NCBI GenBank assembly: GCA_002786025.1
Contig: NHNW01000048.1
Location: 248,001-312,000 of the forward strand
Length of the DNA: 64,000 bases
From: Zasmidium citrigriseum
Taxonomy: Eukaryota > Ascomycota > Dothideomycetes > Mycosphaerellales > Mycosphaerellaceae
Reading direction: 5' to 3'
Part shown: one piece after another, positions 33,447-38,850 of the stretch
Position numbering within the stretch: position 1 is the first letter of the stretch
Layout of the letters: each line of letters begins with the position of its first letter
Program-made: the position numbers and the translations under genes
The notes under the pieces: model-generated
Seen by the model: the letters and a program-made list of their open reading frames with translations, nothing else
Told to the model about the DNA's origin: nothing
The model's database searches: none

Positions 33447-36400
33447 ATGACGGGCGTCCTTCGCCTCGTCCTGGCCACGCTCGGCTTTCTCGCCCTCTCC
33501 TCGTACTCTGCACCTACCGATGGCAACGTCGCCAGCATCGAGGCAGCTTTAGGCAGCCTTGCTCCGGCCGACAACAGCGTCCAGCACCTTGACAATGTCG
33601 TCTGCTATGGCAATTGCTATGGTGAGGATCGTACATGATACTACTCTTACAAGCCCGCTGACCGTTTCGCAGGAGTCAGCAGGGATGTTGCTGTCAAGGC
33701 CATCGACTGGTTCTGCCACGCCGTCGAGGGTCATGTATTCAGCGATCCATCAGACAACTACATTGGCATCTGGACCTACCCCCCAAACCCCGAGCCATTC
33801 TACCCTGGCTACTACGAGGAGGGAAAGATCGTCATGACCATCAATGTGACCGCCGGTGGAGCATGCGATCCGATTATCATAATGGACTATGATGGTTGCT
33901 TTCTCAACTTGATACCGGGACCGGTCGACAGGTATCATGCCGCATGAGCCCTTACCAGCTCGTTCATCCGCTGACACGGAGACATAGCTGCAACACGGAG
34001 TCCACCGAGGGTAAGCAAGGCGGCACCATCGTCACGGGCTGTCTCCAGTACGAATTCCAGCCCAATCCGAAGCATTGGCCCGAGTGCCAGTTCGAGCCCA
34101 ACGAAGCCAAGACCATCGAGAACGAAGGCAAGAGCATCGACAACGAAGGCAAGAGCATCGACACTCGAGCAGAGTCAAGCGTGGCCACCGCGGGTCTGCA
34201 ATGCTTTGACAAGTGCTACGGTAAACGAACAACCCTCTTCTGCATTCGCCAGCCCACTAACAAGCTGCAGGTATTGGACGTTTCGTAGCAATAGCTGCGG
34301 CCAACTTCTTTTGCCCCAAAGTGGACGGTCACACCTTCTACACATCGGCAGACGACTTTGTCGACCACTACACATACGATGTCACCGGCGAATGGCAGTT
34401 CAACAATGGCTATGAGGAAGGCGACATCCGGATGAGCATCAACGCTTCTGAAGGTACTTCATGCTCACCAGGGATCACCATGACCTACCAGGACTGCTTC
34501 GATAGACTCATATTCGACATTGTCGATAGGTAAGTTTATCTTCCCTTGGAGGTGAATAAATGACTGACACAAGCGTAGCTGCGACACATTTGGTGAAAAT
34601 GAAAAGCAGGGTGGGACTCTTGTCGACGGATGCCTCACTTACGAGTTCCACCCGAATCCAAAGTATGTTCATTCTACTCCATGCTCCAACCTCCACTAAC
34701 CTTACCTTTCCATTGTAGATTCTGGCCTGACTGCTATTACGGACCTGGACCACATCATCCACATCATCCACCTCGAGAACTCGAAGCGGCTGAGAACGAC
34801 ACCCGCGAACCGGCTGTCAAGCATCGTGCAAACCCATCGACATCGCTCGCATCGTCAAATCGCGGCCTAGCTCCGGTGATGGAGTCACCGCCTGTACGCT
34901 CAAGTCCCACCAACACCTCTCTCAAGGACGACGTTCCGTCACCAGAGTGCTTCGACCATTGCTTTGGCATCACGAGGATGAACGCGGGCCTTGCAATCCG
35001 CGCTTTTTGCGACCAGGTTGGCAATGCAGAGTTCTACACTTCAGAGGACAATCAAGAGATGACCTGGTGAGTTGAAAGGTTTGCACGATTCATTCGAAGC
35101 TCAATCTGACTCTTCGTAGGACCTATCCGCCAAACACAGAGCAGTACCAAGGCCCGGGTTTCTACGAAGAAGGTGCCATTGGCATGTGGATTGAAGTCTC
35201 TCCCAACGAACCCTGCGATCCTGGCAAGATTATGGATCCCGACGCATGCTACGGCTGGCTGATGTACCAAACGATCGACCGGTTCGTTGTCCAAGATGTT
35301 GGAATACCTTGAAATGTTTGCTGACCCATTCTCAGGTGCGACACGGAGACTGAGAACTACAAGCAGGGCGGCAGCATCACCCACGGCTGTCTCAAGTACA
35401 CCGTCAACCCGAATCCTCTCTACTGGCCGGACTGCTATTACAAGCAACCTCCACCTCTCCATGCGGCTGCAGAAGTGGACTCACTGACCAGCGGTCCTGT
35501 CGCGGTCGTCGAGACACCTCCGGTCCTGTCAAATGCCAGCGATGTCAGCCTTCAAGACCTGCCGACGCCCGAATGCTTCGATAGATGCTTCGGGGTGGCG
35601 AGAATTGTCGTAGGGAACGCGAGCACCTACTTTTGCAATTGGGTCGGCAACGCAGTATTCACCGACCCGGAGAGTAGCAAATCTATCACCTGGTGAGTGT
35701 TGACCCGTCTGGAATGAGAGCCCTGATTCTGACTGGTCGTAGGAGCTATGAATCCACCGATCCTAGATTCCAAGGCCCGGGGTGGTACGAAGAAGGCGCG
35801 GTCGGCCTATCAATTGAAGTCATGCCAGGCACGCAATGTGATCCTCCAATCGCGATGGAACCGGGAGCATGCTACGCCTGGCTGATGTACCAAACGATCG
35901 ACAGGTTGGTTTATCTTACGCCAGATCTTTCCACATGTGTTGTGTATGCTGACCTGATCTTAGATGCGACACCGAGGGTGAGAACGGCAAGCAAGGCGGC
36001 AGCATTATACACGGCTGCCTCAAATACACCATCAACCCAAACCCGCTCCTATGGCCTGATTGCTTCACGAAACCAGACCGCCTGTCCAACGACGAGGCAG
36101 AGCCTGTCGCGATTGACGCCGCCGAGCCCTCGAGCCCCTCCAGCTCGATCCACCAACCCGCGACTACCACCATGCCAATTCAAGAAGAGACGCAGAACGC
36201 CCACAACGTTGTTGAGAGCTCGCTAGATACTGCCGTATCATCCCTAGAGCCTTCAGCTCCCAGCCTCGGCATCAGAGACGACTTCCCCAGCCCTCACTGC
36301 TACGGCGACGGAAATGGCTGCTTCGGTACGAGCAGATGGAATACCGTCGAGGCAACAAAGGCCTTTTGCAATGCATTCCAGGGCTGGACATACGATGCTG

Positions 36401-36812
36401 ATCACAACTATACGGAGATGAAGTGGTTTGTGAGATCCTCCATTCCTTAGACTTCTTTGCTAACCTCTTCAAGGTGGCACCGCAAGGAGGTTTGCCTAAA
36501 CGAGGACGGAATGGTTCAGGTACGCATCGACATGGCATGTGAACCGAGCGATGTGCTTTCGTACGACGAGTGCTTTGACATAATCATGCACCAAATCGTT
36601 GACAGGTGGGTCTCTGGGAGTCTTCCATGCACTGGGATCAGGCGAGCTAATCACACCTCAGATGCGACACCGAGTATGAGAATAGGAAGCGGGGAGGATC
36701 GCTCGAATACGGCTGCCTCACTTTCAGCATCAACCCAAATTCTATTCACTGGCCGGATTGCCCGACAGTGTGTGAACCGATCCGTCCTCCAGTGGCACCG
36801 CCGGCGGAGTAG
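33447..36812 (+). CDS. Secreted protein of five tandem eight-cysteine modules
   Basis: Twelve exons (33447-33621, 33673-33931, 33988-34220, 34271-34529, 34579-34662, 34719-35066, 35120-35281, 35336-35692, 35743-35904, 35964-36425, 36474-36605, 36662-36812) encode 927 residues. Residues 1-21 (MTGVLRLVLATLGFLALSSYS) form a signal peptide. Five modules of about 150 residues follow, each running CFDxCFG, FC, YxxxGPGFYEEG, CDPxIxM, CYxWLMYQTIDRCDTE, KQGGSIxHGCLxY, INPNPxxWPDC: eight conserved cysteines, probably four disulfides. Linkers of 25-75 residues are Ser/Pro/Glu-rich. In every module a phase-2 intron splits the Arg/Ser codon before CDTE, and modules 3-5 share a phase-2 intron in the Trp codon before the central strand. 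No catalytic motif or GPI signal is seen. I do not recognise the module; an extracellular or wall-associated role is inference. Confidence 0.88.
33603..34088 (+). repeat. Module 1 of the five-module secreted protein
   Basis: Runs from CYGNCYG to HWPEC. It is the most diverged module at its N-terminal half and lacks the intron before the central strand, where modules 3-5 have one. The DRC position reads DSCNTE. Confidence 0.8.
34121..34162 (+). repeat. Two exact copies of a 21-bp coding repeat in linker 1
   Basis: AACGAAGGCAAGAGCATCGA plus C occurs twice back to back, encoding NEGKSID twice. A third, partial copy precedes it. It lies in the flexible linker between modules 1 and 2. Confidence 0.85.
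34202..34733 (+). repeat. Module 2 of the five-module secreted protein
   Basis: Runs from CFDKCYG to FWPDC. It has a unique extra 56-nt intron (34663-34718) between NPK and FW that the other modules lack, and no intron before the central strand. Confidence 0.8.
34948..35434 (+). repeat. Module 3 of the five-module secreted protein
   Basis: Runs from CFDHCFG to YWPDC. Its central exon (35120-35281, 162 nt) has exactly the length of the matching exon of module 4, and the two modules are the most alike, suggesting the most recent duplication. Confidence 0.8.
35574..36063 (+). repeat. Module 4 of the five-module secreted protein
   Basis: Runs from CFDRCFG to LWPDC. Shares WLMYQTIDRCDTE and KQGGSI.HGCLKYT.NPNP with module 3. 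Confidence 0.8.
36298..36761 (+). repeat. Module 5 of the five-module secreted protein
   Basis: Runs from CYGDGNGCFG to HWPDC. The first cysteine pair is spread by an insertion, and the GPG(F/W)YEEG segment is replaced by a shorter sequence, so this module is partly degenerate, but all downstream cysteines are kept. Confidence 0.75.
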
Positions 36813-37189: not shown

Positions 37190-38850
37190 TTCTCTTAACC
37201 CCACGCCTGCCCAAAGTCGTCAAAGACGGATCCGTTAGCTCAGTGCTGCGAGGAATTGACGGAATAGTCGAAACCGGACGCGAGTCAGCTCTCTCTGGAC
37301 GAATCCCAGCCACCATGCTGCCCGAGGCCTTTCTACGATTATGGCACCATTTGAGATTGCTGGGGACGTCTTTGAATTGACCACGGGAGTAGGAGTTCGC
37401 GGCGCTGCATGCGTCTCTGCAGATTCACCGCTATCGAAGCCACCGATCGTTCATTCGTTGGCGCAGTGCTGTGAGAACTGGATAAGATTGTTGAAGAGAG
37501 TGCAGATCAAATCTCCCCGGAAGAGAACGTAGCTTAAGCTCTTGAATGGCTTGTTCGTAGCTTGATATTGTGGATGGCGGTAGAGATTGTTGGGGATGGC
37601 CTTCAGTCCCGTTGAGCTCCTCTGAGATCCAACTAAAAGAAAAGTCACTGAGAGCAGCTCATTAGTTCAGCCATTGGAGGATCGAAAGAGATCCATCATA
37701 TCGGACTTAGATAAGCTCTCCTCAAGGAACACGTAACTCGGGCACTTCAATGGCTTGTTCGTCGCTTTGTCCTTTGAACTCCGGTGGAGATTTTTGGGAA
37801 GATCTCCCCGTCTCGCTGAGCTTCTCTGGGATCTCAACACTGTCTAAAGTCGCCGATGGCCAATTGCTTGGCTCGGTAGCATGAGGATTGGGCGAGAGCG
37901 TTTACAGAATAGCTCTCCTTGAAGAGCTCGTTACTCATGCTCTTGATCGACTTCTTAGTAGCTCACCCCTTTCGGGAGCTGTTGGGCATTGCCAGAGATG
38001 ACTTCCGGTCCTGTTAGGCATCTCTGAGATCTCGCGACTGTTTGAAGTCATCAATCATTCATTCGTTAGCTCGGTGCCGTGAGAGCGGATCGAGATAGTT
38101 GAAATTGGGCTGGGATCAGCTCTCCTCGAAGCAGTCGCTCTCAAGCACTTGAACAGCCTGTGCGTAGCTCAGTCCATCTGAAAGTGGTTGGGGTTCGAGG
38201 GGGATGGCTTCCAGGACATCTCTGAGGTCTCGACTCGTCCATGCGGCCACATAATGATCCGTTGGCTTATTAAATCTGTGAAGATGGGAGAGATCGATAA
38301 CATTGGGCTCAGATAATCTCTCCTGAGGAGTAGATTACTCATGCTTCTCAACGGCTTGTTAATAGCTTGGTCCTTCGAATTCTATTGGGGATCGCTGCGA
38401 ACACCCAGTCTAATCTACCATCTCTGAGATCCAACTGCTGCCCAAAGTCGCCATGAATCGAGCTGTTGGCTGAGCGCTGTGAGGACGGGACGGGACGGGA
38501 CCATCTGGGTTTCTCTGATATCTCTCCAGTGCCAAAACGTCATCAAACACCGATCCGGTTGCCCAGTGTCGTGAGGAAGGGAGGAGATGATCGATATCGA
38601 ACACAGGCCAGCTCTCCTAGAAGAATCCGTAACTCAAGCTCCGGAACGGCCTATCCGTGGCTCAGTTCTTGATGAAGCCATTCGGGATCGCTGGAAATCG
38701 CGTGAGGCCTGGACGAGATAAGGGGCTTCTCCAATATCTCTCAACTGCCAAAGACAATCAAACACCGATTCGATGGCTCGGTATTGTGAGGACGTGATGA
38801 GATAGTTGACGTGGCAGGCGCGATGGCAGGGATCCCATCTCCTGCAGAGA
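37190..38850. repeat. Diverged tandem repeat array, unit about 200 bp
   Basis: An anchor like AGCTCTCCT recurs near 37287, 37509, 37713, 37911, 38119, 38315, 38610 and 38829, i.e. every 196-222 bp, except one gap of 295 that contains an extra truncated unit (38458-38550). Around each anchor the same order returns: GTTGGCTCGGTGCTGTGAGG, then the anchor with GAAGA, CGTAACTCAAGCTCTTGAA, GGCTTGTTCGTAGCTT, GGGGATCGCTGG, and CATCTCTGAGATCTCAACTG with CCAAAGTCGCC. Copies differ by many substitutions and small indels. No frame is open across several units, and no transposon protein or terminal repeat is visible. This is an old satellite-like array of eight units plus one partial. Its role is unknown; it begins about 380 bp past the end of the modular gene. 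Confidence 0.85.

Follow-up and report, generated by a model that had tools for sequence, protein, structure and literature searches.

A secreted-looking protein of five cysteine-rich modules in Zasmidium citrigriseum, a candidate multivalent relative of Y3-type glycan-binding domains

The locus described here raises the question of what a cysteine-rich module repeated five times in one protein is related to, and what it might bind. The gene lies in a stretch of 64,000 nucleotides of the Zasmidium citrigriseum genome (contig NHNW01000048.1, positions 248,001 to 312,000), which we call the window and whose numbering is used in Table 1. A sequence-only reading of the window had described a secreted-looking, multi-module cysteine-rich protein and had left its role open.

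A predicted secreted protein with five homologous modules

The reading frame of the gene is uninterrupted across its 12 exons, and each of the 11 introns in this predicted gene model is 48-59 nt long and has the form GT...AG. The exon structure first proposed therefore holds at the level of sequence. Of the eight 15-mers with the highest hydrophobicity, seven fall within residues 1-22 of the protein, and the eighth comprises residues 223-237, within module 2. By hydrophobicity the N-terminal stretch is signal-like and fits a putative signal peptide. No membrane anchor was seen among the most hydrophobic stretches. This start, together with the five homologous modules behind it, bears out the earlier description of a secreted-looking modular protein.

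Table 1. Features of the five-module gene, in window coordinates
Feature	Position	Strand	Description
Whole gene, ATG to end of stop codon	33447..36812	+	one open frame, 12 exons, 927 aa
Exons 1-4	33447-33621, 33673-33931, 33988-34220, 34271-34529	+	
Exons 5-8	34579-34662, 34719-35066, 35120-35281, 35336-35692	+	
Exons 9-12	35743-35904, 35964-36425, 36474-36605, 36662-36812	+	
Signal-peptide-like start, residues 1-22	33447..33512	+	7/8 most hydrophobic 15-mers
Module 1, residues 52-178	33600..34087	+	8 Cys; introns after CYG (phase 1) and at VDS/C (phase 2)
Linker between modules 1 and 2	34099..34163	+	21-nt unit, 3.1 copies
Module 2, residues 216-342	34199..34734	+	8 Cys; the two introns of module 1 and one before FWPDC
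Module 3, residues 413-540	34945..35435	+	8 Cys; introns in Trp codon of TW (phase 2) and at IDR/C (phase 2)
Module 4, residues 586-713	35571..36063	+	8 Cys; introns as in module 3
Module 5, residues 791-911	36295..36761	+	9 Cys; introns in Trp codon of KW (phase 2) and at VDR/C (phase 2)

The modules measure 121-128 residues, less than the roughly 150 first estimated. Aligned, they share 25 invariant columns, of which 8 are cysteines. The expected set of eight cysteines describes modules 1-4, whereas module 5 has nine. Residue 915, beyond module 5 (window 36474-36812), is also a cysteine, and it could form an extra C-terminal bond with the ninth cysteine of module 5.

When module 4 was searched against the whole 44.4-Mb genome, every other module was found through its best-scoring exon: module 3 at E 2.0e-17, module 1 at E 1.0e-12, module 5 at E 2.3e-9 and module 2 at E 1.3e-6. 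The initial part of module 5 reached only E 0.24. Judged by these values, the likeness between modules is greater than chance, and the proposal of five tandem modules stands. At 62.5% identity, modules 3 and 4 are not "nearly alike" as had been stated; the remaining nine pairs share 34-47%. Five motif signatures attributed to all modules occur as written in modules 3 and 4 and not in the others. Codon position 3 is the most divergent position in all ten module pairs, and for modules 3 and 4 dN is 0.31 and dS 1.41.

Linkers of 37-77 residues separate the modules. Between modules 2 and 3, a His/Pro run is encoded by a 9-nt repeat (window 34750-34771). Directly downstream of the gene (window 37200-38800) is a degenerate direct-repeat array with spacings of, for example, 204, 197-198 and 404 bases; its copies (families D1-D8) are 60-83% alike to the reference, and Tandem Repeats Finder does not list it. 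Among six neighbouring open frames, five match families (M19 dipeptidase, alpha/beta hydrolase, homocitrate synthase, GMC oxidoreductase and FAD-binding protein) and one matches none, which provides no functional clue.

Paralogous domains and the growth of the repeat

Two further copies of the domain are encoded elsewhere in the genome, here called C116 and C57 after their contigs. With module 1 as query over the whole genome, C116 was found at E 1.8e-6 (residues 2-120, 40% identity) and the C57 domain only at E 0.12; module 4 reached C116 marginally (E 0.028). C116 in turn found C57 at E 2.0e-7, and the reciprocal search gave E 5.7e-8. Scored with a profile built from the five modules, C116 gave 51.0 bits and the C57 domain 33.5 bits, and for neither did any of 3000 plain or 3000 cysteine-fixed shuffles come up to these values. 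Aligned by hhalign, the modules and the paralogue domains gave E 9.9e-13. These sequence comparisons show the modules to be homologous to the domains of C116 and C57.

C116 is a single-domain protein of 131 aa (near 859758-860078, minus strand), encoded by a gene with one 61-nt intron; after a signal-like N-terminus comes an LEKR site of processing type, and what follows is the domain alone. A single-domain product of this layout, together with the length of the linkers described above, would suit a precursor that is cleaved in its linkers into five single-domain, C116-like proteins. However, when KR and RR pairs, and only these, were counted, the sole pair lay inside module 5 and none in the linkers. 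We consider such a precursor very improbable.

The C57 domain is found in a different setting. At C57:151500-158000, on the minus strand, are glucanase frames, the last of which (509 residues) ends in the module-like domain as its C-terminal 111 residues. The 509-residue frame itself has no Pfam family match, and the enzyme was assigned because of the matches of the frame upstream, namely PF12708 (E 2.3e-72) and, in the PDB, glucan 1,3-beta-glucosidase 3eqn (E 3.9e-94), beta-1,3-glucanase 5m5z and MnLam55A. We take the enzyme to be a beta-1,3-glucanase of family GH55 and the frames to be one putative gene. Domains appended to such glucanases are often carbohydrate-binding. The C57 C-terminal domain is thus a candidate carbohydrate-binding appendage.

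Alignment of all seven domains separates two sets of cysteines. The first, third, sixth and seventh occupy identical columns in every domain, and the fourth and fifth have paralogue counterparts in the same column or 1-2 columns away. The second and eighth are present in all five modules and in neither paralogue. This joint distribution makes a bond between the two probable.

The introns and a tree bear on how the repeat grew. A phase-2 intron between VD(S/R) or ID(R) and the following cysteine is in the same column in all five modules. Modules 1 and 2 alone share a phase-1 intron behind CYG, modules 3, 4 and 5 alone share one of phase 2 within a tryptophan codon, and module 2 has one additional private intron. 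Automatic alignment placed the tryptophan-codon intron of module 5 at column 58, not 44. In a piecewise alignment anchored on this intron, where the coincidence of the sites arises by construction and is a consistency check rather than proof, the part before it is gap-free except for three extra residues of module 5 near its first cysteine. Downstream of its first intron, module 5 is shorter than the other four. The shared and class-limited positions point to two intron classes, one of modules 1 and 2 and one of modules 3, 4 and 5. Neither paralogue has an intron inside the domain.

In a tree of the seven domains, the modules and the two paralogues are split with support 97, while support within the modules is 60-66: modules 3 and 4 group together (63), module 5 joins them (60), module 2 joins these (66) and module 1 lies outside. 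Modules 1 and 2 are not grouped. The CYG intron may therefore be an older state retained by modules 1 and 2 rather than the mark of one lineage. It had been suggested that the expansion ran through the centre of the protein. Modules 3 and 4 are indeed the closest pair, but the introns form two classes and the tree recovers the group of modules 3, 4 and 5 weakly (60) and that of modules 1 and 2 not at all, so this scenario is supported only in part.

A bridge to Y3 and the likely ligand

C116 is the candidate link between the modules and a known structure. Over positions 4-88 of the 92 in the Pfam profile GBD_Y3 (PF22803) it scored 27.1 bits (E 6.4e-6); a query that began several residues ahead of the domain gave 26.8 bits. 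A GBD_Y3 search of the genome returned it at 26.2 bits; the same search was silent in all 14 control genomes. The curated cut-off of the family is 28 bits, so that C116 falls below it each time (26.2-27.1 bits), by 0.9 bits at best. In the PDB, its sole match at E up to 10 was Y3 of Coprinus comatus (5v6i_A, E 0.0028), aligned over residues 2-87 of the 112-residue chain. A local comparison of C116 with Y3 gave 20.0 bits; when the Y3 stretch was shuffled 5000 times plainly and 5000 times with its cysteines fixed, no shuffle scored as high.

The other domains do not make this connection themselves. The five-module profile scored 4.4 bits against Y3, equalled by 25 and 46 of 3000 shuffles, and single modules scored 0.0-5.3 bits, values that 23 to 1205 of 5000 shuffles equalled; the best, module 1, was equalled by 34 plain and 23 cysteine-fixed shuffles. 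Direct similarity of the modules to Y3 is at or close to noise. For the C57 domain there was no match to Y3 (its score was equalled by 3772 and 4125 of 5000 shuffles) and, in Pfam, none to GBD_Y3. Since C116 has the direct match that the modules and C57 lack, the link passes through one bridge sequence, and the sequence data support kinship of the modules with Y3 by way of C116.

Searches of other collections placed the modules in no family. At E up to 10 in Pfam, none of the five matched GBD_Y3, Fungal_lectin_2 or DUF26, and DUF26 (PF01657) was absent from the matches of all seven domains. For LDL / Fungal_lectin_2 (PF18647), no domain was above the Pfam cut-off; C116 scored a non-significant 14.4 bits (cut-off 26.5), and a search of the genome with this family found no match, the controls being likewise silent. 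The modules, and profiles of five, seven and two domains, matched nothing in the PDB, and NCBIfam returned nothing for the seven domains. In a protein database, where a null result does not imply absence of orthologues, module 4 alone gave no candidate and the full protein gave 3297 candidates with none at E up to 1. The profile search that had been recommended, run there with the five-module alignment, gave 83 candidates with none at E up to 10, and no well-described family was assigned. A scan of viral contigs with the five modules found no relative. Matches of the full protein to PF04248 (13.3 bits, cut-off 22.1), and matches to PF01537, PF19408 and PF20433, were set aside as chance. The modules themselves are therefore without a Pfam, PDB or NCBIfam family, in keeping with the sequence-only reading, which knew of none, but they have two relatives in the same genome, one of which leads to Y3.

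AlphaFold2 was run on the 85-residue exon-encoded part of module 1, about two thirds of the module (mean pLDDT 46.5), and on this part together with the same part of module 2 (mean pLDDT 35.9); both models were unusable. With direct similarity to Y3 near noise and no usable structure model, we infer the fold and the sugar binding, as well as the disulfides and the coating, proposed below.

Gnk2, LDL and Y3 are sugar binders (PMC6368629 and PMC10927120, both in excerpt). Five domains akin to a glycan binder, and a sister domain behind a beta-1,3-glucanase, suggest that the gene product is secreted, pentavalent and related to Y3-type glycan-binding domains. We prefer to see in it a multivalent protein that binds the wall or glycans, a reading to which we assign about even chances. 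The fold of Gnk2, LDL and Y3 consists of helices packed on an antiparallel sheet. The product would be a soluble secreted protein with five divergent domains of this type (Y3/LDL/Gnk2-like) on flexible linkers. Each domain would probably fold around the six core cysteines that have counterparts in the single-domain paralogue, and the added pair, the second and eighth, would probably tie the module ends together. The ligand of the domains may be a glycan, with a polysaccharide of the cell wall as the likeliest; five sites would confer avidity, and the protein could coat or cross-link a wall or glycoprotein surface.

The ectodomain of plant PDLP5 has the same Gnk2/LDL/Y3-like fold and bound none of the sugars tried, according to the consulted part of PMC6368629, which counts against a glycan ligand. 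The fold may instead be a scaffold for protein binding, in a secreted effector or matrix protein whose targets belong to a host, to a competitor or to the fungus's own proteome. For DUF26 domains, roles in contacts between proteins have been discussed (PMC6368629, in excerpt), and the divergence of the modules outside the 3-4 pair suggests that their binding surfaces may differ. However, the homologous domain on a beta-1,3-glucanase points to a polysaccharide partner, and we regard protein binding as rather unlikely.

A toxic function has also to be weighed. In the portions of the literature consulted, killer toxins and LDL/Gnk2 lectins form one fold grouping (PMC10927120, PMC13211469), beside which Y3 is set (PMC13211469); nematotoxic CCTX2 has a C-terminal domain that is similar to KP4 and LDL (PMC13324453), and Y3 itself is called cytotoxic (PMC11043172). 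As lectins and toxins are grouped in one fold, sequence alone cannot separate the two readings. The product could thus be a multi-domain antifungal or anti-animal protein from the killer-toxin side of the group (KP4/Klus/KHR), with a role in defence or competition. Against this, Pfam listed no killer-toxin family for any of the seven domains (E up to 10, most matches above 0.1 being filtered out), the six adjoining open frames include no toxin or immunity family, and five tandem copies on linkers would seem to fit binding better than poisoning. We hold a toxin to be improbable.

Comparison with single-domain and tandem relatives

The preferred reading, a multivalent glycan-binding protein, can be set beside several known systems. 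Y3 (PF22803, 5v6i) is a cysteine-rich domain of about 100 residues, over most of which C116 aligns; the modules differ from GBD_Y3 in lacking a Pfam match, in two cysteines absent from both paralogues, in their greater length and in their tandem arrangement. With LDL (Fungal_lectin_2) they would share a fold group (PMC10927120, in excerpt), the fold here being a presumption; the match of C116 to that family is weak, and the modules have none. The C57 protein, a GH55-type glucanase with a homologous C-terminal domain, combines an enzyme with one domain, whereas the five-module protein has five domains and no enzyme.

A parallel in architecture is found in plants. The DUF26/Gnk2 proteins (CRRSPs, CRKs and PDLPs) have domains that are extracellular and disulfide-rich, the fold of these domains has been compared with those of Y3 and LDL, and CRKs and PDLPs carry two domains each in tandem (PMC6368629, in excerpt). 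The protein described here carries five, and it has no DUF26 match, kinase domain or visible membrane anchor. Tandem DUF26-type lectin domains seem plant-specific, according to the same excerpt (PMC6368629). Among the open-licence papers listed in our literature searches, none reports a tandem Y3-type fungal protein, and other tandem cases may exist.

We suggest, at somewhat less than even odds, that this protein corresponds in fungi to the tandem-DUF26 proteins of plants. It would be a secreted lectin, pentavalent through internal duplication of a Y3-type domain that had gained an extra cysteine pair, and tandem arrays of this lectin fold would have arisen outside plants too. Five Y3-type domains in one fungal protein would be a new arrangement. 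If the fold and the binding hold true, a lectin fold described as single in fungi and as paired in plants would extend to a five-domain fungal protein, contradicting the remark on plant specificity as it stands in the excerpt of PMC6368629. The comparison would then also suggest a ligand class for an otherwise unannotated secreted protein, and a single genome offers a series for tests of valency, from one domain (C116) through an enzyme with one domain (C57) to five.
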